A stretch of 64,000 nt of DNA from Gillisia mitskevichiae. Lineage in GTDB: Bacteria; Bacteroidota; Bacteroidia; Flavobacteriales; Flavobacteriaceae. The notes beneath the pieces are model-generated. The model was not told where the DNA came from and ran no database searches. It saw nothing but the letters and a program-made list of their open reading frames with translations. Position numbers and translations under genes: made by a program. The DNA lies in the NCBI RefSeq assembly GCF_003634585.1, contig NZ_RBLG01000002.1:744001-808000 (forward strand), in the 5' to 3' direction. Of the stretch, positions 12,396 through 64,000 are shown in pieces; position 1 is the first letter of the stretch; every line of letters starts with the position of its first letter.

Positions 12396-13682
12396 TTATA
12401 AAGTTTTAGCAACTTTGTTTACTGCTGCAATAGTTTTATCTAAATCTTCGTAAGACAAGGCTTCGGTTATAAACCAGGTTTCAAAAGCACTTGGTGCAAT
12501 ATAGATCCCCTCAGCCAACAAACCGTGGAAAAATTCTTTAAAAATATGATTGTTCGCATTAGCTGCAGAGGAAAAATCTGTTACAGGATTTTCTGAAAAA
12601 TGAATTGAGATCATCGATCCTAATCTATTTATTGTATGAGGAACGTTGTTTGCTTTTAATGCGCTATCTATCCCTTCATGTAAATAAGCTGTTTTCTCGT
12701 CTATACTTTTAAAGATCTCTCTCTTGCTATCAAGTTCTTCCAACATTGCTAGACCAGCAGCCATAGCTAATGGATTCCCACTTAATGTCCCAGCTTGATA
12801 AACCGGTCCTATTGGTGCTAAATGATCCATTATCTCTGCCCTAGCTGCAAAAGCTCCTACTGGCAATCCACCTCCAATAACTTTACCAAAGGTCACTATG
12901 TCTGCGCGGACATCCAGTCTTTCTTGAACTCCTCCTGGAGCCAATCTAAACCCAGTCATTACCTCATCAAAAACTAATAAGATATCATTCTCGTCACACA
13001 GCCTACGTAATCCTTCTAAAAATCCATCTCTTGGAGGAATACAACCCATATTACCGGCTACAGGCTCTAAAATTATACAAGCAATTTCACCAGGATTCAA
13101 TTCTACAAGATTTCTAACATCATCTAGATCATTAAACGCTGCAAGCAAAGTGTCTTTTGCTGTACCAGCAGTTACTCCCGGACTATTAGGAGTGCCAAAT
13201 GTTACCGCTCCACTTCCCGCTTGAATTAAAAATGAATCGCTATGACCATGATAACAACCAGCAAATTTTATTATTTTTTCCTTACCTGTAAATCCGCGGG
13301 CTAATCTCACTGCACTCATACAAGCTTCAGTCCCTGAATTTACAAATCTAATCTTGTCTATATTAGGAACCATCTTTACTGCTAATTCGGCAATCTTGGT
13401 TTCAATTTCTGTAGGAGTTCCAAAAGATGTTCCTTTTCTCGCTTTTTCAATAACTGCATCTACCACAGGTTTAAAAGCATGTCCAAGGATCATTGGACCC
13501 CAAGAATTAATATAATCTATATACTTGTTCCCATCTTCATCGTATAAATAAGCACCTTCTGCTTTTTCAATAAAAATAGGAGTTCCTCCAACTGCATTAA
13601 AGGCTCTTACGGGAGAATTCACTCCTCCAGGTATTACTTTTTGTGCAGCTTCAAATAATGCACTACTTCTTTTATAATTCAT
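12396..13682 (-). CDS. hemL: Glutamate-1-semialdehyde 2,1-aminomutase
   Basis: A 428-residue PLP enzyme converting glutamate-1-semialdehyde to 5-aminolevulinate in C5-pathway heme synthesis. The PLP lysine is Lys267 in TFGKVIGGG. Other family marks are the N-terminal [23 protein letters not shown] and the [11 protein letters not shown] block with the PLP-ring Asp. Length is standard. It is the last of three same-strand genes; only 9 bases separate it from the upstream glucosaminidase, suggesting co-transcription although the functions are unrelated. Confidence 0.98.
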
Positions 13683-13691
13683 AATTAAGTA

Positions 13692-14516
13692 TCAATTAGC
13701 TGTAGAATCTACAATAAGTTCCTGCCCAATAGCAATATTTGTATTAGGAAGGTTATTAATCTTTTGTAATGTTTCTACACTAGTATTATTTCGTTTTGCA
13801 ATAGAATATAAGGTATCTCCTTTTTGCACTATATAATTATTAGATCCATTAGATCTAACTGCCACTTCTCTTCTCTCCCTTCTAAATGTTTTACCTAAAA
13901 CTTCACTATCGAATCTATCAAGCTCGTAGCGTTCTATAATATCGATAAGCTTTCTAGGGTATAATCTATCTGTAGCATAGCCCGCAGCCCGAAGACCTTT
14001 TGCCCAAGATTCATAATCGTCTATATCTAAATCGAAAAGATCTGCATATCGCCTTCTTTGGCTAAGAAATAAAGAATGATCCCGATATGAGTATTTTGGA
14101 TCGTTATATTTCCTGAAACACTCCTGAGATCTGTCGTCATCATGATACACTTTATCCCCTTCCCAATCGTGACATTTTATACCAAAATGGTTATTAGCTT
14201 TTCTGGTTAGTTCTCCTCTTCCTGCTCCAGATTCTAAAATTCCTTGTGCCAGCGTTATACTTGCAGGGATTTTATAAAGTCTCATTTCCTCTTGTGCTAT
14301 TTCATGAAAATTAGCCACATATTCTTCTACCACATTTGCATAAGAACCTTTGGGTGCACTTACTGCTCTGGTAGAATTCTGACCGACTTTTTTTGAAGTT
14401 ATTTCCCTTTTCTCCTCATTTTTTTGAGATACTACTTTCTTCTTACTTCCACAAGAAGCTAAAAAAAGTAAAAGAGAAAATCCTAAAAGGAGTTTATGAA
14501 GTTTTATTTTATACAT
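13692..14516 (-). CDS. Glucosaminidase lipoprotein with C-terminal LysM
   Basis: A 274-residue peptidoglycan hydrolase. The lipobox ends at Cys22 (LASC), followed by a Lys/Ser-rich linker. A GH73-type mannosyl-glycoprotein endo-beta-N-acetylglucosaminidase domain occupies about residues 65-215: ITLAQGILESGAG holds the catalytic Glu, followed by NNHFGIKC and a conserved region with YSYRDHS. One LysM domain binding peptidoglycan ends the protein (about 228-271, YIVQKGDTLYSIAKR). It probably acts in septum or wall remodelling from the outer membrane. The first 8 bases overlap the upstream PLP gene. Confidence 0.92.
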   Translation of the reverse strand: MYKIKLHKLLLGFSLLLFLASCGSKKKVVSQKNEEKREITSKKVGQNSTRAVSAPKGSYANVVEEYVANFHEIAQEEMRLYKIPASITLAQGILESGAGRGELTRKANNHFGIKCHDWEGDKVYHDDDRSQECFRKYNDPKYSYRDHSLFLSQRRRYADLFDLDIDDYESWAKGLRAAGYATDRLYPRKLIDIIERYELDRFDSEVLGKTFRRERREVAVRSNGSNNYIVQKGDTLYSIAKRNNTSVETLQKINNLPNTNIAIGQELIVDSTAN

Positions 14517-54737: not shown

Positions 54738-55754
54738 TTACTCTAAGATCTTGATCATATTAAAGGATTTAAAAAGGTGAAAAAGGCCTGGCAGAATAAT
54801 AGCTCCACCAATTATTAGAGAAATACCTAAAACAGAGATCACCTCATCTGTAGCTGTAGTTTCTAAAAGACTTATTTCTGAAGTTGTCGTGATTATTAAG
54901 TTAGGAAAATGAGCAATTATTGCAGCAATAAGAACCAAAACGACTTGTATTCCCGCAAAGGTTCTACTAGCAATTTGAAATTCTTTTTTGATGCTATACA
55001 ACAGTGGAAATATTAGCACCGCAGAGAGAGCTACTAATCCCAGTGAATAAGAATTTTGCATGAAATTAGTAATAAAATACACCTCCTGTACAAATCCAAA
55101 ACTAAGTACTAAAAAGCCCGATATAACAACTACCAGCGTAGCTATTTTAGCCTTTTTAAGGTAAATATTGGGAGTATTCTCATCTACTTCTCCTATTAAT
55201 AAAATGGTAGCTAGAAATGCACAAAGTGCAGCAAAAAACAATCCCACCAAAACAGAAAAACCATTTAACCAGGGTTGAATAAATAGACTGTAGAATGTGA
55301 AATTTGTATAATCTTCGGTTATCACAATTTGACCAGAAACCATTGCGCCGAATGTCATTCCCAGAAATATTGGGGTAATTAAACTAGAAATTCTAAACAT
55401 CCAATCATATAAAATTTGAGATTGATCTTGGTAGGCATCATAATGCCTAAAAACAAATGCCACGCCTCTTAGAGTGATGCCCAAAAGTATTAAGGTGAGA
55501 GGAATATGTAGGTAAACAACCAGTACATTATAGAAGTTAGGAAAACCAACCCAAAGAATTACGATCATGAGAATGATCCAAATATGGTTTGCTTCCCAAA
55601 CAGGTCCCATTACACGGTAGACCGTTTTTTTAGTTAAATGCCTATTTTTTTGGGATGAAAAAAGTTCTACTATTCCTGCACCAAAATCGGCTCCCGCTAA
55701 AATAACATATAACAGAAGAGAGAACATCAGAAAAAACAAAACTACATATAACAT
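54738..55754 (-). CDS. cydB: Cytochrome bd ubiquinol oxidase subunit II
   Basis: A 338-residue polytopic membrane protein with about eight to nine hydrophobic helices. The N terminus (LYVVLFFLMFSLLLYVILAGADFGAGIVEL) contains the GADFGAG block typical of CydB. It is the second subunit of the bd-type quinol oxidase, which reduces O2 to water with high affinity. It starts 7 bases after the cydA stop on the same strand. No small CydX-type gene follows. Confidence 0.95.
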   Translation of the reverse strand: MLYVVLFFLMFSLLLYVILAGADFGAGIVELFSSQKNRHLTKKTVYRVMGPVWEANHIWIILMIVILWVGFPNFYNVLVVYLHIPLTLILLGITLRGVAFVFRHYDAYQDQSQILYDWMFRISSLITPIFLGMTFGAMVSGQIVITEDYTNFTFYSLFIQPWLNGFSVLVGLFFAALCAFLATILLIGEVDENTPNIYLKKAKIATLVVVISGFLVLSFGFVQEVYFITNFMQNSYSLGLVALSAVLIFPLLYSIKKEFQIASRTFAGIQVVLVLIAAIIAHFPNLIITTTSEISLLETTATDEVISVLGISLIIGGAIILPGLFHLFKSFNMIKILE

Positions 55755-55761
55755 CCTATAC

Positions 55762-57060
55762 TTATTTAGAGTTATTTAAAGACTTTATTTGTCTAGACAT
55801 CAACCAAGTTACTGCAATTGTTAACAGCGCATATACAGCCATGTACATATAAAAACTATAGATCATTCCAGGCATTGGCGTAACAGCATCCTCTGTTTTC
55901 ATAATGTTATGGATAATCCATGGTTGTCTACCCGTTTCTGTAACTATCCAACCAGCTTCAAGAGCGATAAAGCCTAGTGGAGCAAGTACAGTAAATAGAA
56001 GCCAATACTTTTTATTATTCCACCATTTTTTCTTTTTCAGACTAACAAAGAAGAGTATTCCACATAGTAAAAGCAATGTCCCAATTCCAACCATCGTTTG
56101 AAATGCATAATGCACTATTGGCACTTTCGGAATTTCATCTTGGGGAAAATCATTTAGTCCTTTCACTTCAGCATTAAAATCTCCAAAAGCCAAAAAAGAT
56201 AAAGCTTTAGGGATCTCTAACTTATAAGATACTTCCTTTTTCTCGGCATCTACAATTCCGCCAATATATAAAGGGGCACCTTTTTGAGTTTCGTAATGAG
56301 CTTCCATTGCGGCTAGTTTGGCTGGCTGTCTTTGTGCAATGTCCTTAGCAGAAAGATCACCACTAAATGGCTGTAAAATGGCAGCAATTGCACCAAAAGT
56401 TATGGCTATTTTAAATGCTTTTTTATGCAGCTCTACTTGTCTATTCTTATATACTTGATAAGCATGAATTCCAGCTACAGCAAAACCTGTGGCAGTAAAA
56501 GCCGCTAAGGTCATGTGCAAGGCCTGAGTGAACCATGCAGGATTAAATAAAGCTTGAACCGGATCTATATTTAAAAATTCACCATTTATGTAATCAAACC
56601 CAGAAGGAGCATTCATCCATGCGTTTGCTGAAACTACAAGAATACCCGAGGCAACTCCGGATACTCCAACAATTATCCCTGTGATCCAATGAAACTTTTC
56701 AGGGATCTTATCCCAACCATATAGATAAAAACCTAAGGCGATGGCTTCTACAAAAAAAGCAACACCTTCCAGTGAGAATGGCATTCCTATAATGGGGCCG
56801 GCATGTTTCATGAATTCTGGCCATAACAATCCCAATTCAAAGGATAAAGCAGTTCCAGAAACCGCGCCAGTTACAAAGAAAATAGCAACGCCTTTTTGCC
56901 AGGATTTGGTCAGTTTTAAATAAATTGGATTTCTAGTATTCAGCCACTTTTTGTGAGCTACGACCATAAAAAATGGCATTACCATCCCAATACATGCAAA
57001 AACAATATGAAAAATGAGCGTAAATGCCATTTGTAATCTTGCTGCATCTAGATTATCCAT
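55762..57060 (-). CDS. cydA: Cytochrome bd ubiquinol oxidase subunit I
   Basis: A 432-residue polytopic subunit carrying the hemes. The family motif GRQPW is present in the quinol-side region (TETGRQPWII, about 366-375), and the N-terminal LQMAFTLIFHIVFACIG block has the axial His of heme b595 type. At 432 residues it is shorter than the E. coli subunit, consistent with a short Q loop. A minus-strand -7 box TATCTTTG (57091-57084) lies just upstream, with no clear -33. Confidence 0.96.
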   Translation of the reverse strand: MDNLDAARLQMAFTLIFHIVFACIGMVMPFFMVVAHKKWLNTRNPIYLKLTKSWQKGVAIFFVTGAVSGTALSFELGLLWPEFMKHAGPIIGMPFSLEGVAFFVEAIALGFYLYGWDKIPEKFHWITGIIVGVSGVASGILVVSANAWMNAPSGFDYINGEFLNIDPVQALFNPAWFTQALHMTLAAFTATGFAVAGIHAYQVYKNRQVELHKKAFKIAITFGAIAAILQPFSGDLSAKDIAQRQPAKLAAMEAHYETQKGAPLYIGGIVDAEKKEVSYKLEIPKALSFLAFGDFNAEVKGLNDFPQDEIPKVPIVHYAFQTMVGIGTLLLLCGILFFVSLKKKKWWNNKKYWLLFTVLAPLGFIALEAGWIVTETGRQPWIIHNIMKTEDAVTPMPGMIYSFYMYMAVYALLTIAVTWLMSRQIKSLNNSK

Positions 57061-57364: not shown

Positions 57365-57886
57365 TTACACAAGCTCTGTTTCTTCTTTTATTTCTTCTTC
57401 CTGAGTACTTTCAGAAGTTGCTATTTTATTGAATTCTTCCAACTTTTCTTCTTCTCCAGAGAAGTATGGAAAAACATCTAAAATTGGAGATTCTGTAATT
57501 GCGGGAATAGAATATTCTCCCATGGTATTATCCATAGCCTGAGTAGTATTCTCGAAAGCTTCTTTTACATCGTTCGCCTGTACCAACATATACACATTGG
57601 TTTTTTTCTCTTTCCCACTATTTTCATCTAAGGCTATTAAAGAAACTTTAGATTTAAACCATCTATCGGAGTTTTCAAAAGGATGAACCTCAGATAAATT
57701 AGCTACTTTGATGTTTGTAATTAGAAACTCTTCACTAGTATAAGCAGTCATCTCTTCGTTTATTCTAGCTTCTGCTTCTGTAAACGAAATTGCATCTAAT
57801 AAATACGTTTCTGTAGTTAATTTTTGTTCTCCACTATCATGTGTTTTTCTGTATTTTACTTTACACTCATACCAAGTTGCGCTCAT
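57365..57886 (-). CDS. DUF4494 domain protein
   Basis: A 173-residue cytoplasmic protein that fits DUF4494: TWYECKVKYRKT at the start, YLLDAISFTEAEARI near residue 30, and a WFKSKVSLIALDENSGKEKK block near residue 77. Beyond about residue 145 the tail is acidic (many Glu). The family is common in Bacteroidota and of unknown function. A minus-strand -7 box TATATTTG (57913-57906) is exact and lies about 20 bases upstream. Confidence 0.9.
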   Translation of the reverse strand: MSATWYECKVKYRKTHDSGEQKLTTETYLLDAISFTEAEARINEEMTAYTSEEFLITNIKVANLSEVHPFENSDRWFKSKVSLIALDENSGKEKKTNVYMLVQANDVKEAFENTTQAMDNTMGEYSIPAITESPILDVFPYFSGEEEKLEEFNKIATSESTQEEEIKEETELV

Positions 57887-58193: not shown

Positions 58194-61082
58194 ATGACAA
58201 ATTCAAAGTTAAAGCTAATGGCTTTTATGCTTTCTTTTAGCGTCGCTACATTTGTTTCCAGCGACCAGGCTTTCGGACAACAGAAAGCCAACTCAGGTGC
58301 CGATCTATCTATAGAATACGAGAAGTATGAGCTAGATAATGGTCTTAATATTGTACTGCATCAGGACAAATCAGATCCCATCGTTTCTGTAGCTATACAA
58401 TATGGTGTTGGGTCTAACCGTGAGAAGAAGGGACGCACGGGTTTCGCACACCTTTTTGAGCATATGCTTTTCCAAGAATCTGAAAATGTTGCGCAGGATC
58501 AATTTTTCAAAAAGATACAGGATGCCGGTGGTACTTTAAATGGTGGAACCTGGCAAGACGGAACTGTTTATTATGAAGTAGTACCAAAGAATGCACTAGA
58601 AATGGTAATGTGGCTGGAATCCGATAGAATGGGTTACCTCATTAATACAGTTACTGAAGCTGCTTTTGCAAACCAACAGGAAGTTGTGCAAAATGAAAAA
58701 CGCCAACGGGTAGACAATAATCCTTACGGACACACTGGATGGGTGATCGATAAAAATTTATATCCAGATGGGCATCCTTATAGCTGGCAAGTAATTGGGG
58801 AACTTGAAGATCTTCAGAATGCTACGGTTGCTGATGTAAAAGAATTTTACGATAAATTTTACGGACCTAATAATGCGACTTTAGTTATTGCTGGAGATTT
58901 TGAAAAATCGGAAGCTAAAAAACTAGTAGAAAAATATTTCGGAGAGATCAATAAAAGGCAAGAAGTAGCGCCTTTAGAAATTCAAACGGTTAGCCTTTCT
59001 AAAACCAAGCGACTTTACCATGAAGATAATTTTGCTAAAGCGCCACAATTGAACATGGTTTGGCCGGTAGCAGAGCAATACAGCAAAGATGCCTATGCAC
59101 TGGATTTCCTTGGAGAAATATTATCCGACGGAAAAAAAGCGCCTTTATATAAGGTTCTAGTTGAACAAAAAGAGCTTGCCTCTCAACCAAGAGCTTATAA
59201 CAATCCTAGTCAAATTGCAGGAAAATTCCAGATCTCGGTGACCGCAAATGCAGATGTAGATCTAGATAATGTAGAAGCAGGAATAAAAGAAGCTTTCGCT
59301 TTATTCGAAAAAGAAGGCGTAACAGATAGAGATATTGAGAGAATTAAAGCAGGCCAAGAAACCGACTTCTATAATGGAATAAGCAGTGTTCTTGGTAAAT
59401 CTTTTCAATTAGCACAATACGATGTTTTTACTGGAAATCCTGGTTATATAGAAAAGGACATTCAAAACATTCGTGCAGTGACCAAAGAAGATGTAATGCG
59501 TGTTTACAATACTTATATCAAGAATAAACCATTCATTCTTACAAGTTTTGTTCCTAAAGGACAACTAGATCTTATTGCTGAAAATTCTGAAAAAGCCGAA
59601 GTGGTAGAAGAGGAAATTACAGAGAATGTGAAAACAGAAGTTGCTGAAGCGACTCAGGAAATACAAAAAACAGCTTCAAAATTCGATCGTTCCGTTCAGC
59701 CAAAAATGGGTGATACTCCTAAATTAAATATTCCTACTTCTTGGAAAGAGAAACTTGGTAACCAACTAGAGGTTTACGGATTGGAACAAAAAGAATTGCC
59801 TTTGGTGAATTTCAGTATTGTAATAGAAGGAGGACATTTATTAGACGATCTAAGTAAGAATGGAGTTGCAAATTTAATGTCAGATATCTTGATGGAAGGT
59901 ACTGCCAATAAGACTCCTGCAGAACTGGAAGAAGAAATAGACATGCTTGGTGCTAACATATATATGTATACCGGGAACGAATCTATCGTACTTCGTGGGA
60001 ATACCTTAAAACGTAACTTCGATAAAACTATGGCCTTAGTGGAAGAAATTTTACTTCAGCCAAGATGGGATGAAAAGGAATTTGCTCGCATAAAAACAAG
60101 TACTATTAATGGAATTAAAAGAAATGAAGCGAATCCTAATGTAATAGCAAATCAAGTTTATAACAAAGTATTGTATGGTGAAGATCATCCTTTTGCATAT
60201 CCAACATCAGGAACAGTAGAATCTGTAGAGTCTATAAAAATCCAAGATCTAAAAGATTATTATAACAACTATTTTTCACCTTCGGTAAGCCGTATGCACA
60301 TTGTTGGTGATGTTTCTAAAGCAGAGGCATTAAAAGCTGCAAATGGTTTAGCAGAAAAATGGGAGGCAAAAGAAGTGACAATTCCCGAATTTAGTGTGAG
60401 TAACAATCGCGACAAGGCATCTTTATATTTTGTAGATGTGCCTAATGCCAAGCAATCTGTGATTAACATTGGATATATCGCTTTACCAAGAACCAGTGAA
60501 GATTTTTTCCCTGTTGATGTAATGAATTACAAACTTGGAGGATCTTTCTCCGGAAATGTGAATCTTATATTACGAGAGGAAAAAGGATATACTTATGGAG
60601 CACGTTCAGGTTTTAGCGGATCTAAAATTCCAGGAACCTTTACAGCATCTTCTAGTGTTCGTACAAATACCACAGGAGAATCTGTTGGAATTTTCAAGGA
60701 CGAAATAGCTAAATATAAAGAGGGAATTTCTCCTGAAGATCTGGAATTTACAAAGAATGCATTAATTAAATCTAATGCGCTTCGTTTTGAAACTCAAGGC
60801 TCATTACTTGGAATGCTTCAGGAAATGAGTGCTTACGATCTTGATCCTAAATATATCGAGAAAGAAGAGAAGATCATTGGTGCCATGACTCTTGAACAAC
60901 ACAAGAAGCTAGCCCAAAAATATTTGGATGAGTCTAAAATGGCATATCTGGTTGTAGGTGATGCTGCAACGCAGTTGGACCAGTTTAGAGATATGGGATT
61001 TGATGAAGTTAAAGTGTTGGATAAGCAAGGAAATGAAGTAACACTTCCTATTAATTTAGAAACTGAAGAAGTTAAAGATTAA
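58194..61082 (+). CDS. M16 family zinc metallopeptidase (pitrilysin-like, two-lobed)
   Basis: A 962-residue protein with a signal peptide (about 1-28). The first M16 lobe (about 40-490) has the inverted zinc motif HLFEH (His86, Glu89, His90) and the downstream Glu in a NEKRQRVDN block. An acidic linker (about 470-500, many Glu) leads to the second lobe (about 510-950), which lacks HxxEH and is the usual inactive partner. It probably degrades peptides in the periplasm or at the surface. Its promoter and an unusual structured leader lie upstream, and a strong terminator follows the stop after 21 bases. Confidence 0.95.
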   Translation: MTNSKLKLMAFMLSFSVATFVSSDQAFGQQKANSGADLSIEYEKYELDNGLNIVLHQDKSDPIVSVAIQYGVGSNREKKGRTGFAHLFEHMLFQESENVAQDQFFKKIQDAGGTLNGGTWQDGTVYYEVVPKNALEMVMWLESDRMGYLINTVTEAAFANQQEVVQNEKRQRVDNNPYGHTGWVIDKNLYPDGHPYSWQVIGELEDLQNATVADVKEFYDKFYGPNNATLVIAGDFEKSEAKKLVEKYFGEINKRQEVAPLEIQTVSLSKTKRLYHEDNFAKAPQLNMVWPVAEQYSKDAYALDFLGEILSDGKKAPLYKVLVEQKELASQPRAYNNPSQIAGKFQISVTANADVDLDNVEAGIKEAFALFEKEGVTDRDIERIKAGQETDFYNGISSVLGKSFQLAQYDVFTGNPGYIEKDIQNIRAVTKEDVMRVYNTYIKNKPFILTSFVPKGQLDLIAENSEKAEVVEEEITENVKTEVAEATQEIQKTASKFDRSVQPKMGDTPKLNIPTSWKEKLGNQLEVYGLEQKELPLVNFSIVIEGGHLLDDLSKNGVANLMSDILMEGTANKTPAELEEEIDMLGANIYMYTGNESIVLRGNTLKRNFDKTMALVEEILLQPRWDEKEFARIKTSTINGIKRNEANPNVIANQVYNKVLYGEDHPFAYPTSGTVESVESIKIQDLKDYYNNYFSPSVSRMHIVGDVSKAEALKAANGLAEKWEAKEVTIPEFSVSNNRDKASLYFVDVPNAKQSVINIGYIALPRTSEDFFPVDVMNYKLGGSFSGNVNLILREEKGYTYGARSGFSGSKIPGTFTASSSVRTNTTGESVGIFKDEIAKYKEGISPEDLEFTKNALIKSNALRFETQGSLLGMLQEMSAYDLDPKYIEKEEKIIGAMTLEQHKKLAQKYLDESKMAYLVVGDAATQLDQFRDMGFDEVKVLDKQGNEVTLPINLETEEVKD

Positions 61083-61128: not shown

Positions 61129-61194
61129 TTTGTTTATAGTTTTTAACAAAAAAAATATACTGGATTCTGATACTTATTTACTAAAATCAGTTGT

Positions 61195-61223
61195 TTATTG
61201 ACAATTGTTGATAATTATCCACA
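61195..61223. promoter_or_regulatory. Cluster of DnaA-box-like sequences
   Basis: TTATTGACA (61195-61203, one mismatch to TTATNCACA), then TGTTGATAA (61206-61214) abutting a perfect TTATCCACA (61215-61223). The last two are back-to-back inverted. It may be a DnaA-responsive site or part of an origin (inference); the flanking AT-rich sequence is compatible with unwinding. Confidence 0.4.
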
Positions 61224-61425
61224 TAATAACAATAAATATCACAATTTCTTTAAAGAAATAAGCTAAGTTTGAGATAGAAAATTCTTGGCACCCTACCCTT
61301 TTGAATTCAACTCAATACTTACGTAATTAATATTTTTTATCCTGACCTAATTTGGGGTTAACCCATTTTAAAGCGATGATATAACTAGTTAGCTGTAATA
61401 CCAAACCAAATCCAAAATCTAAAGA

Positions 61426-63357
61426 ATGTACCTGTCATATATTAAAGTAGAAAATTACAAAGGAATTGAAACTATAGAAACTGAATTTGACTCTAATATC
61501 AATATAATCATTGGAGAAAATGGAAGTTGTAAATCTGCCATAATTGATGCTATTAGGTTACTTTATAACGTTGGCGAACCAATAAGAGAAATTTCGGTTT
61601 CATCCGATGATTTTCACCAAAAAAGAGTAGAAATTGCCGATAAAATTAATATCGAAAAAGCTACACTTATCACAATTACATATATTTTTAAAGGCCTTAC
61701 TACAGCTCAAAAAGGTGCTTTTTATGAATATATGGTAATTAACCCAATAGATAAGGAGGAAGATTATGCTAAAATAACAATCAGTTATGAAGAAAAAGAT
61801 GGAAAATATCCTCAATTCTCATATAATACAGGGGATATTGACGGTCAAAAAGCTGACTACAAAACGTTTGAGTTATTTCAACATTATTATCTAGGAGCAT
61901 TAAGAGATAGTACTCGTAATTTATTGAGTACTCGCAGTAATGTGTTAGGAAGGGTGATTAAAAGATTTGTAAATAGAAATGAAACAGAATCTGAAATTGA
62001 ACAGATAATGAAAGACGCAAATTCTCAGTTACTTGGCAGAGAAGAAGTCCTTAACACTAGGGATGGAGTAAATCAAAATTTAGAGGGTATTTTTAAAAAA
62101 TTTCTGGATAATAAAATTGGTCTTAGAATAGAAGATTCAAGAACAGAATATATTGTCAACGCAATTAAACCATTTTTACCTCATAACAGAGAAAGTTTAA
62201 ATGAGGAAGGATTTCATTTGTGGCAAAATAGCTTAGGTTTAAATAATCTCATTTACATAGCAATTGTATTGGGAGACGTGAAACAACAAATTGAAGATAA
62301 CGAAATTCCACATTATGCACTTCTAATTGAAGAACCAGAAGCTCATTTACATCCACAGCTCCAATTAAGTTTATACAACTTTCTGACTAGTGCTAATGCC
62401 TCAGATAATAGTCAATTATTCATAACTACTCACTCTCCTACTCTAACATCTAAAGTGCCTTTGAAAAATCTAATCCTATTAGATAATAAAAAAGCTCACA
62501 AACTTGAACATCAATTTCAAAATAGAATGCCTGAAAATATAATTCAAGATACTACTAAGAACGCTACTTTAAAAGAAATCGATTTTCAATTAAGTCAAAA
62601 AAAACTTGAGCGATATATTGATGTAACAAAATCTCAACTTTTTTATGCCAAATCGGTTTTGTTCGTGGAAGGAATCTCCGAAGAACTCCTTCTTTCTTCA
62701 TTTACAAGATTAGATGATTATCAACTCGAAGATTATAGAGTGGAAATAGTAAACGTTAGAGGAACATCCTTTTATCCTTTCCTATATCTATTCAACAATA
62801 GGGATGAAAATAAAAGGATAAACAAACCGATTACAGTAATTACGGATGATGACCGTTATACATCTTCTAAAAATTCAAAGTATAGTTTTAATAAATTATT
62901 AGAAACAAATTATTCTGTACTTACAGAATTAGATGATAAAATACAAAATGGCACTCAAGTAACTAGAATCGCAAATCTAAATTCTGTTGCTAATAATGCT
63001 GATAACATAAAAATATCACATTCCTTTAAAACACTAGAGTATGAATTATCTATTCATAACATTAAGGAGAATCGAACAGAACTATTTGATAATTTCCTTT
63101 TTGATTATATCAATCAAAATTCCCCAGATAAAATTGTTAAAATCATTGAATACACTCGAACATTCGAAAATGATATTATGTCAGAGGTTGAAAAGCGAAA
63201 AGTAGGTATTTTATTATGGAAAGCTTTACCATCTAAAGCAGACCTCGCACAAGATTTTTCAATACATATTCTTGAAAATTTAGAAAGTGCCAAAGATTCT
63301 TTCGTAATTCCTCCATATATTCAAGACGGACTAACTCATTTAAGGCAAGGAATATGA
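61426..63357 (+). CDS. gajA: OLD-family ATPase/TOPRIM endonuclease, GajA-like
   Basis: A 643-residue protein of the class 2 OLD type. An ABC-like ATPase domain is split around its N and middle part: Walker A GENGSCKS (30-37) with an unusual Cys35, and Walker B plus D-loop LLIEEPEAHLHPQ (about 298-310), then THSP (H-loop). A C-terminal TOPRIM nuclease carries VLFVEG (about 411-416, with the catalytic Glu) and TDDD (about 470). It directly precedes, with 4-base overlap, a UvrD-like helicase gene, the hallmark pair of Gabija anti-phage defence. Activity is inferred from the pair, not shown. Confidence 0.8.
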   Translation: MYLSYIKVENYKGIETIETEFDSNINIIIGENGSCKSAIIDAIRLLYNVGEPIREISVSSDDFHQKRVEIADKINIEKATLITITYIFKGLTTAQKGAFYEYMVINPIDKEEDYAKITISYEEKDGKYPQFSYNTGDIDGQKADYKTFELFQHYYLGALRDSTRNLLSTRSNVLGRVIKRFVNRNETESEIEQIMKDANSQLLGREEVLNTRDGVNQNLEGIFKKFLDNKIGLRIEDSRTEYIVNAIKPFLPHNRESLNEEGFHLWQNSLGLNNLIYIAIVLGDVKQQIEDNEIPHYALLIEEPEAHLHPQLQLSLYNFLTSANASDNSQLFITTHSPTLTSKVPLKNLILLDNKKAHKLEHQFQNRMPENIIQDTTKNATLKEIDFQLSQKKLERYIDVTKSQLFYAKSVLFVEGISEELLLSSFTRLDDYQLEDYRVEIVNVRGTSFYPFLYLFNNRDENKRINKPITVITDDDRYTSSKNSKYSFNKLLETNYSVLTELDDKIQNGTQVTRIANLNSVANNADNIKISHSFKTLEYELSIHNIKENRTELFDNFLFDYINQNSPDKIVKIIEYTRTFENDIMSEVEKRKVGILLWKALPSKADLAQDFSIHILENLESAKDSFVIPPYIQDGLTHLRQGI

Positions 63358-64000
63358 TTTTTGAATTAAATGATGAAAGGAGTGCATATCTTCAAGCAAG
63401 AGGTAAAATCATATTAAATGCCTGTCCTGGAAGCGGTAAAACAACTACAATAGCTCAAAAAATTATAGAGTTAGAGCAATCAAAAGAAATTGGTTCCTAT
63501 TCGGGTATTGCTTGTCTTTCATTTACTAACTCTGCAAAAGATGAAATAAACGAATCTTATTCTAAACTAAGTGGAAAAATTTTAAGGTTTCCTAATCACG
63601 TTTCTACTATAGATAGTTTTATAAATAAATTTATAACACTCCCTTTTTACAATATCTTAAATCGAGATTTCAATAGACCTAAAATTCTTGACCACACTAA
63701 TATTCTTGATGAGATGTGGAAAACAGAATATATTGGAAAGGATGGTAAATTAAAAGAAGGATTGATACCACCTTTAAACTTTGCTAAATACAAAGCAAAA
63801 AATAACAGAAGTATATACCACCTATATCCTCCAAGCGAAATTAGAATTGAACCTGATGGTAGTTATTCAATTAATGGAAATCAGCCATCACAAGACAAAG
63901 TTGAAAAAGAAAAGTTTATAAATTATTGTAAATTAATTAAGAATAAACAGTTTACCAAAGGTTTAATATCAACAGGTGATTCAGCCTATATTGCTCTTCA
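63354..64000 (+). CDS. gajB: UvrD-like helicase, GajB-like, truncated by window edge
   Basis: The first 215 codons are visible and stay open to the right edge. Helicase superfamily 1 marks seen are motif I ACPGSGKT (Ala23-Thr30), motif Ia-like SFTNSAKDEI and a VSTIDSFINKF motif Ic-type block. The start codon overlaps the upstream stop (ATGA), so the two are co-translated. In Gabija systems GajB is thought to sense nucleotide or DNA ends and activate GajA. The remainder, and any flanking defence genes, lie outside the window. Confidence 0.78.
   Translation, partial: MIFELNDERSAYLQARGKIILNACPGSGKTTTIAQKIIELEQSKEIGSYSGIACLSFTNSAKDEINESYSKLSGKILRFPNHVSTIDSFINKFITLPFYNILNRDFNRPKILDHTNILDEMWKTEYIGKDGKLKEGLIPPLNFAKYKAKNNRSIYHLYPPSEIRIEPDGSYSINGNQPSQDKVEKEKFINYCKLIKNKQFTKGLISTGDSAYIAL

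Follow-up and report, generated by a model that had tools for sequence, protein, structure and literature searches.

A complete Gabija system probably carried as an integron gene cassette in Gillisia mitskevichiae

By what route did a Gabija-type gene pair come to lie at the right edge of the DNA analysed here, and can the unit in which it moved still be recognised? The window, a stretch of 64,000 nucleotides (nt) from Gillisia mitskevichiae, corresponds to positions 744001-808000 of contig C2 in a 3.59-Mb draft genome of 18 contigs (G000, the host genome). Gabija is among the commonest phage defences, and its movement as a unit is rarely visible; at this locus, both the unit and its ends are readable. 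We conclude, with a probability of about 88%, that the segment from window position 61388 to window-equivalent position 65275 is an integron gene cassette carrying a complete Gabija system. Positions past the window edge were read on the host contig in locus L003 and are given as window equivalents (L003 coordinate plus 55999).

A sequence-only reading of the window had proposed a two-gene pair with a 4-base overlap. Both open reading frames (ORFs) are present on the plus strand with this overlap: gajA (61426-63357) encodes an OLD-family ABC ATPase/TOPRIM nuclease of 643 aa, and gajB (63354-64000) encodes a UvrD-like superfamily 1 (SF1) helicase that is open at the window edge, with its first 215 codons inside. 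The complete gajB codes for 609 aa and stops at L003:9184 (window-equivalent 65183). GajA matched the PADLOC model PDLC00083 with 938.7 bits (E 3.8e-283, residues 1-641 of 643), and GajB matched PDLC00138 with 344.7 bits (E 2.6e-103, residues 1-587 of 609). The Pfam matches of GajA above cut-off, AAA_15 (1.8e-29) and OLD-like_TOPRIM (2.1e-12), agree with the PADLOC result and with the family named earlier; those of GajB were UvrD-helicase (3.2e-33) and UvrD_C (1.8e-10). The sequence-only reading had singled out a housekeeping helicase as the finding that would speak against it. GajB scored 74.9 with NCBIfam pcrA (cut-off 911.2) and 69 with uvrD (cut-off 1144.45), both far under the housekeeping thresholds, and this objection does not apply. 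By E-value, the best sequence match of GajB in the PDB was a GajB chain (8jqb_E, 9.5e-13), with PcrA narrowly behind (1.2e-12). A single-sequence PDB search with GajA matched OLD TOPRIM and class 1 OLD chains and found no GajA chain; with a 21-sequence profile, the class 1 OLD chain 6p74 came first (2.4e-38) and GajA chains next (8sm3, 1.1e-31). CPGSGKTT, DEAQD and later SF1-like motifs are visible in GajB. The order gajA-gajB was found in 12 of 12 loci re-examined (gajB being split in one of them, G011). Both genes are under constraint, since dN/dS was 0.078-0.090 for gajA and gajB against Flavobacterium degerlachei and Kordia (four comparisons). AlphaFold2 on the window GajA together with L063-L065 (four sequences) gave a mean pLDDT of 32 and no usable model. 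The near full-length profile scores, the gene order and the conserved catalytic residues bear out the assignment to Gabija/class 2 OLD. Judged from its sequence, the pair is a genuine Gabija-type system, and by itself an ordinary one.

The ends of the unit lie close to the two genes. The 5′ boundary, GTTAGCTGTAATACC, is at 61388-61402 on the plus strand and has the recombination core G|TT; the gajA start codon is 38 nt past the start of G|TTAGCTGTAATACC. Directly after gajB, at window-equivalent 65184-65198, stands the R'' box GGTACTACAGCTAAC, followed by an attC remnant that extends to 65275. GGTACTACAGCTAAC is the inverted complement of the 5′ end at 14 of 15 bases, and none of 40 shuffles was as good. 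The sequence GTTAGCTGTARTACC occurs exactly at two places in the 3.59 Mb, which are the two gajAB ends, inverted; with up to 2 mismatches, it was found at 15 places, versus 9 for a reversed control. These 15-nt ends were seen by eye in the flanks; they are too short for a repeat search with a minimum of 16 nt, which missed them. The gajAB copies of F. degerlachei and Paludibacter share the 5′ boundary base, which precedes the gajA start by 38 nt in all three. Inside this boundary, each of the two is identical to the host at 30 of 38 nt; upstream of it, the sequences are unrelated (at best 15/40 over 13 shifts).

The sequence after gajB was recognised as attC of the host type. The attC model R2 matched L003:9193-9325 with 53.3 bits (E 3.7e-10), which was its sole match in the window, L003 and L004. 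A repeat from the attC array on host contig C7, described below, recurs after gajB with 86% identity over 80-81 nt. Along the array contigs, the 3′ flank of gajB has 118 matches, with identities of 78-95%. Because 112 of these 118 matches end exactly at L003:9276, the gajAB attC is truncated at that point. At this locus, an initial scan that scored the attC arms in a simple way gave nothing above shuffles, and model R1, built from F. degerlachei and run with filters off, gave nothing better than E 0.49.

In F. degerlachei, the related pair was found inside an attC array. Four attC-like elements of 124-131 nt lie around and beyond gajAB; all four fold with z of -3.8 to -4.2 relative to shuffles, and 10 of 27 consensus pairs are changed on both sides. 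R1 is the covariance model made from these four elements. It finds 26 attC in the F. degerlachei genome, 14 of them on contig C26 and all of these on one strand. The gajAB cassette within this array measures 3,924 bp including a complete attC. Across 13 intervals, the cassette start fitted its own R'' better than shuffled partners (0/20,000 permutations); eight intervals score 10-14 of 15 and five only 3-7, and two of the low-scoring five contain a group II intron or an IS91 element. In the Paludibacter metagenome-assembled genome (MAG), an attC follows gajB (E 7.2e-19).

Several other features of these arrays were recorded. A group II intron reverse transcriptase (L065:2995-4311) and an IS91 transposase whose gene overlaps that of a tyrosine recombinase (L065:9250-11183) flank gajAB as insertions in the F. 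degerlachei array. This IS91-linked tyrosine recombinase was considered as the integrase of the array and dropped because of the overlap. One F. degerlachei cassette interval holds a type II restriction enzyme and a cytosine methyltransferase on the minus strand (L151:4579-6647). A genome of another family of the same order has 11 R1 attC matches on one strand at G805:C1:908000-927999 (L179), and a homolog of the recombinase (379 aa) lies some 2 kb upstream of them.

The host genome has a large attC array of its own. R1 gave no attC in the host at E<=0.01, and the conclusion drawn from this null, that the host has none, was rejected, as the host attC differ in sequence. R2, run on 17 loci of other genomes, gave 2 weak matches only; the two attC families therefore hardly cross-detect. 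The host array was reached through the best TIGR02249 match of the genome, on contig C7. There, a tyrosine recombinase of 381 aa is followed by a cassette beginning GTTGTGCACAATAC and then by 133-nt repeats, which recur about every 0.8 kb on C7, C8, C9, C10, C11, C12 and C6. On these seven contigs (loci L203-L208, L215, L219, L222 and L223), 121 of 126 R2 matches are full-length attC, a minimum for the host, and none of the 126 runs against the contig orientation. With R2, C13-C18 gave no attC, and neither did C6 past 60 kb, the far end of C7 or the two ends of each of C1-C5; inside C1-C5, the R2 search covered the window, L003 and L004. The cassette count starts after the first cassette, which has a 108-aa ORF and no preceding attC. 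The 111 cassettes measured have a median of 839 bp and a maximum of 2,866 bp. In 91 of 111 cassettes, at least 12 of 14 positions of the start are complementary to the R'' of the same cassette, versus 78 of 12,210 mismatched pairs (0/5000 permutations). In the arms of the 118 sites measured out of 121, 15 of 16 positions are paired, with G-T allowed, in 86-117 of the 118; one position is mismatched and one base is unpaired, as expected of imperfect attC hairpin arms with an extrahelical base. Changes on both sides (GC/TA, GC/CG) were observed.

The cargo of the host array is mixed. Most cassettes hold one ORF, and the longest ORF is in sense in 91 of 102. The cargo scan took the longest ORF of each cassette (91 of 101 listed cassette proteins, at least 100 aa). 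Among the best 25 of 111 PADLOC families there were an Old-like protein (C9), an AbiU-like protein, an N-terminal SAVED/HNH-type match and a PD-Lambda-2_B match; among the best 25 of 51 Pfam families, there were four ParE toxins and one PemK. A second OLD-family protein is a cassette of this array (L205:7487-9022, PADLOC Old 5.8e-43).

We then considered whether the GajA of this cassette is intact. The TOPRIM acidic residues E415, D474 and D476 (62668-62853, plus strand) were placed by alignment with a column match to 8sm3. They are invariant across 21 aligned sequences. They fall on E379, D432 and D434 of Bacillus cereus GajA, and H336 falls on H320 (counted on the alignment); the roles of the B. 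cereus TOPRIM and His residues are those given in passages of PMC10781630 and PMC8136825. The Walker A motif claimed in the sequence-only reading needs one correction: it is not canonical, as GENGSCKS (61513-61536, plus strand, by alignment) keeps Lys36 and has Cys35 in place of the P-loop glycine before it. At this position, the 8 closest GajA (52-100% identity) have C in five cases, N in two and S in one, and 13 of 13 more distant GajA of the alignment have G (n = 21; ten weaker GajA ORFs were left out). This split could mean that the substitution marks a degenerate or ATPase-free branch, in which GajA has lost the ATP-dependent function of the B. cereus protein. We consider this unlikely. 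None of the 21 sequences deviates at the lysine, at E302/E303, at H336 or at the TOPRIM residues, and dN/dS is 0.08. Moreover, the B. cereus P-loop reads GMNDIGK, and according to passages of PMC8136825, the K35A change left cleavage and ATP inhibition unchanged, and no ATP hydrolysis by B. cereus GajA was observed. A P-loop variant therefore need not be dead. The ATP site of GajA is called highly conserved in passages of PMC10781630, and the literature passages used do not make a canonical Walker A a condition of Gabija membership.

The surroundings of the cassette were compared with those in congeners. To its left lies an M16 peptidase gene (58194-61082, plus strand) that is conserved in the genus, and hemN (L003:9646) and further genes come after gajB. 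In G003 and G007, the homolog of the window gene 57365-57886 directly adjoins hemN, with no M16 gene and no gajAB between them; in the host, the M16 gene and gajAB sit there. None of 12 congener hemN loci has M16, gajA or gajB in a flank of up to 1.5 kb; in G013, G005 and G009, different genes adjoin hemN. Congeners match the M16 gene together with its own flanks (window 58099 to about 61149) at other loci. From 61150 to window-equivalent 65565, no counterpart was found in the loci compared except for gajAB and the attC remnant, and gajAB are the sole long ORFs of this segment. The part between the M16 module and the cassette (61150-61387, no strand assigned) matches only the host's own copy among the loci fetched. 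It contains a promoter-like TTGACA-18-CATAAT at 61198-61227, which is a consensus match only; 33 promoter-like sites were found in L003:4950-9700 versus 25.0 expected. A by-eye check of the flanking ORFs, including those past the right edge, showed no third defence-like ORF beside gajAB. A second synteny difference was noted further left: two cydAB-like genes (by eye, window 54738-57060) separate genes that directly adjoin in G003 (L055). The window also contains a SusC/RagA gene (675.7 bits, cut-off 368.25), of a family typical of Bacteroidota.

A number of observations weigh against reading this segment as a cassette. The host gajAB lies outside the attC array, and that array is itself broken over contigs. 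The attC after the host gajB has no L' and R' (the 3′ half), so a complete attC was not found there; the sequence left of gajAB is not attC by R2, and L003:9277-9565 has no match in the loci fetched. With its size, the gajAB cassette would exceed all 111 host cassettes measured. On the 3′ side, before AAC, ungapped matches to the host number 21 of 43 for F. degerlachei and 19 of 43 for Paludibacter, with an indel. Integron R'' and R' boxes have the consensus RYYYAAC and GTTRRRY; in the host, these fit only 6 and 5 of 111, and AAC/GTT alone is constant. Of two host attC examined singly, neither folds significantly better than shuffles (z -1.09 and -0.89). Ends of this kind were absent at gajAB of Kordia, G011, G539, G167 and four distant loci. 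The Paludibacter ends agree at 12 of 15 with 12 of 40 shuffles as good, and the Paenibacillus ends agree at 13 of 15 with 0 of 40 shuffles as good, but not at the GTT core.

These points would fit an ordinary Gabija that arrived by homologous recombination or with a transposon, its matching ends being repeat leftovers or transposon inverted repeats, with no integron involved. The locus is indeed a rearranged junction, where the M16 gene is also found, and 4 of 8 clade members (Kordia, G011, G539 and G167) lack such ends, while two more (Paludibacter and Paenibacillus) have none that pass at a GTT core. Nevertheless, the 3′ flank is host attC sequence, at up to 95% identity and E 3.7e-10; attC sites enclose the F. 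degerlachei copy, whose array has 14 measured sites; and no transposase-like ORF is seen among those listed beside the host gajAB (by eye, with no family search). We therefore regard an arrival of this kind as very improbable and retain the integron cassette.

The distribution of gajAB was examined at several levels. Within the genus, a GajA match at E<=0.001 occurs in 13 of 16 genomes, and in only 2 of them is it strong: the host and G011, where the protein has 65% identity and lies at another place. In the family, 3 of 397 genomes have GajA at E<=1e-40, and in the phylum, 23 of 395 match the PADLOC GajA model at E<=1e-30, the host being included in both counts. A search of genome contigs gave the closest GajA in F. 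degerlachei (87%), Paludibacter sp. (86%) and an uncultured Kordia (83%). Flavobacterium and Paludibacter belong to different orders, and their GajA are closer to that of the window than the congener's is, which indicates horizontal transfer. The IMG/VR scan gave no GajA relative, and phage records gave two GajA fragments of 29-31% identity. Plasmids gave 52 records, the best from Paenibacillus (50.6%); among the best 40 of the 52, the other 39 are at 31% or below. The GC content is 29.7 for gajA and 28.2 for gajB, versus a mean of 33.8 for 1.9-kb windows (sd 2.2, minimum 28.3), which is only suggestive of transfer. The locus had been taken as an acquired one, and this is upheld by the patchiness in the genus (2/16), by the closest copies in Flavobacterium, Paludibacter and Kordia, and by the synteny with G003 and G007. 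That gajAB serves DNA repair or housekeeping rather than defence is scarcely credible: OLD proteins and UvrD helicases have repair relatives, an archaeal OLD class acts in the cell cycle (abstract of PMC12796447) and the best PDB match of the GajA profile is a class 1 OLD ahead of GajA, but the pair is patchy in genus and family, has close copies in other genera and is packaged as a cassette.

Two relatives have irregular gajB genes. In G011, gajB is in two overlapping frames (L057:11986-12546 and 12510-13769), by frameshift or assembly error, and a few kb away there are ORFs that resemble, by eye, a type I restriction locus. In the Paludibacter MAG, gajB (L063:4084) stops about 17 codons before its relatives, and the missing residues are still readable downstream.

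The recombinase that heads the host array is a tyrosine recombinase of 381 aa (G000:C7:4368-5513, minus strand). It lies at the 5′ end of the C7 array, with the first cassette directly past its stop. G003 and G007 each have a 381-aa ortholog, preceded by the same gene of 731 aa and followed by attC repeats (4 and 3 sites, respectively), and a 584-aa homolog precedes the F. degerlachei array. The host recombinase scored 201 bits with TIGR02249, below the integron-integrase cut-off of 265, and no TIGR02249 match over cut-off was found anywhere in the host genome. A stretch of 67 residues in IntI4 corresponds to 24 in the host protein, which aligns through that region to Xer-type chains; for the F. 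degerlachei recombinase, the figures are 70 and 28. This additional domain is used to define IntI in passages of PMC2426708, PMC9668308 and PMC9024848. With NF040815 (recomb_XerA_Arch, cut-off 220 bits), whose name 'site-specific tyrosine recombinase/integron integrase' covers Xer types too, the host protein scored 220.5, just over, and the F. degerlachei array recombinase 193.4, under. A recombinase homolog lies within 5 kb of an attC on the same contig in 5 of 10 genomes with R1 matches (G786, G805, G004, G788, G811); this is a raw count, and tyrosine recombinases are common. In G004, G788 and G811, the co-location involves a single weak attC match each (E 1e-4 to 8e-4). G045 has a recombinase fragment, and the other four genomes have no homolog on the same contig (in G028, the two matches are at two contig starts). 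At E<=1e-25, 14 of 15 genomes have a recombinase homolog, among them the Kordia genome, which has no R1 match.

Taken further, we lean somewhat towards a Bacteroidota integron class with a Xer/XerA-like integrase lacking the additional domain and with arrays of more than 100 cassettes. Such a class would package a full-size two-gene Gabija and provide an unrecognised route for defence genes between Bacteroidota families; searches that require IntI would miss it or call its arrays clusters of attC sites lacking integron integrases (CALINs). Passages of PMC8618304 and PMC9668308 count Bacteroidota among the phyla that have integrons, but passages of the IntegronFinder 2.0 survey (PMC9024848) name one complete integron in Bacteroidetes, that of Salinibacter ruber. 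With at least 121 attC and a recombinase that lacks the IntI domain in one genome, our data suggest that part of this gap may stem from the rule by which integrons are detected and not from biology. Whether such a recombinase handles folded single-stranded attC becomes directly testable.

At an earlier stage, the cassette was probably circular and closed at its attC, and an integron recombinase probably inserted it at a G|TT site. Capture by the host's own recombinase is inferred, and so is the direction of the moves. Since gajAB now lies outside the attC array and its attC has lost the 3′ half, the cassette is probably fixed, and it may be expressed from a neighbouring promoter. As expected from family membership, GajA and GajB would assemble into the 4:4 complex known for Gabija, which would either cut incoming DNA or block it. 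Phage infection would remove the brake on this complex, for which nucleotide depletion and DNA ends without RecBCD have been proposed in print. The predicted function would thus be anti-phage.

Compared with the Gabija of B. cereus VD045 and class 2 OLD systems, the host pair has the same gene order, with an ABC ATPase/TOPRIM nuclease and a UvrD-like helicase, and the same conserved E/DxD and helicase motifs. It differs in length (643 and 609 aa versus the solved GajA and GajB chains of 578 and 499 aa), in the Cys, Asn or Ser that replaces the P-loop glycine in its clade, and in being carried as an integron cassette. What is new is how gajAB travels; the points of interest are its packaging, the large host array and a recombinase that lacks the IntI domain, and the pair itself is plain Gabija. 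Darracq 2025, Kieffer 2025 and Getz 2025 are said to describe defence cassettes of sedentary and mobile integrons. According to passages of the review PMC12409362, integrons of Vibrio and mobile integrons have been known as defence libraries since 2025; their systems are streamlined in size, and larger ones of more than two genes are absent. In the portions consulted of the literature on integrons with Gabija, anti-phage cassettes and chromosomal integrons, a scope that excluded the primary 2025 papers, we found no description of a Gabija system carried in an integron cassette. As in the known defence cassettes, anti-phage genes are carried here with attC, whereas the host cassette is a full-size, two-gene one of about 3.9 kb in Bacteroidota; the idea of an integron 'defence library' would thus extend to this phylum and to a large two-gene system. 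Like a Vibrio-type superintegron, the host array has many similar attC in a row with toxin-like and unknown genes; unlike it, the host recombinase lacks the IntI-specific insert and stays under the TIGR02249 cut-off, and the R''/R' boxes deviate.

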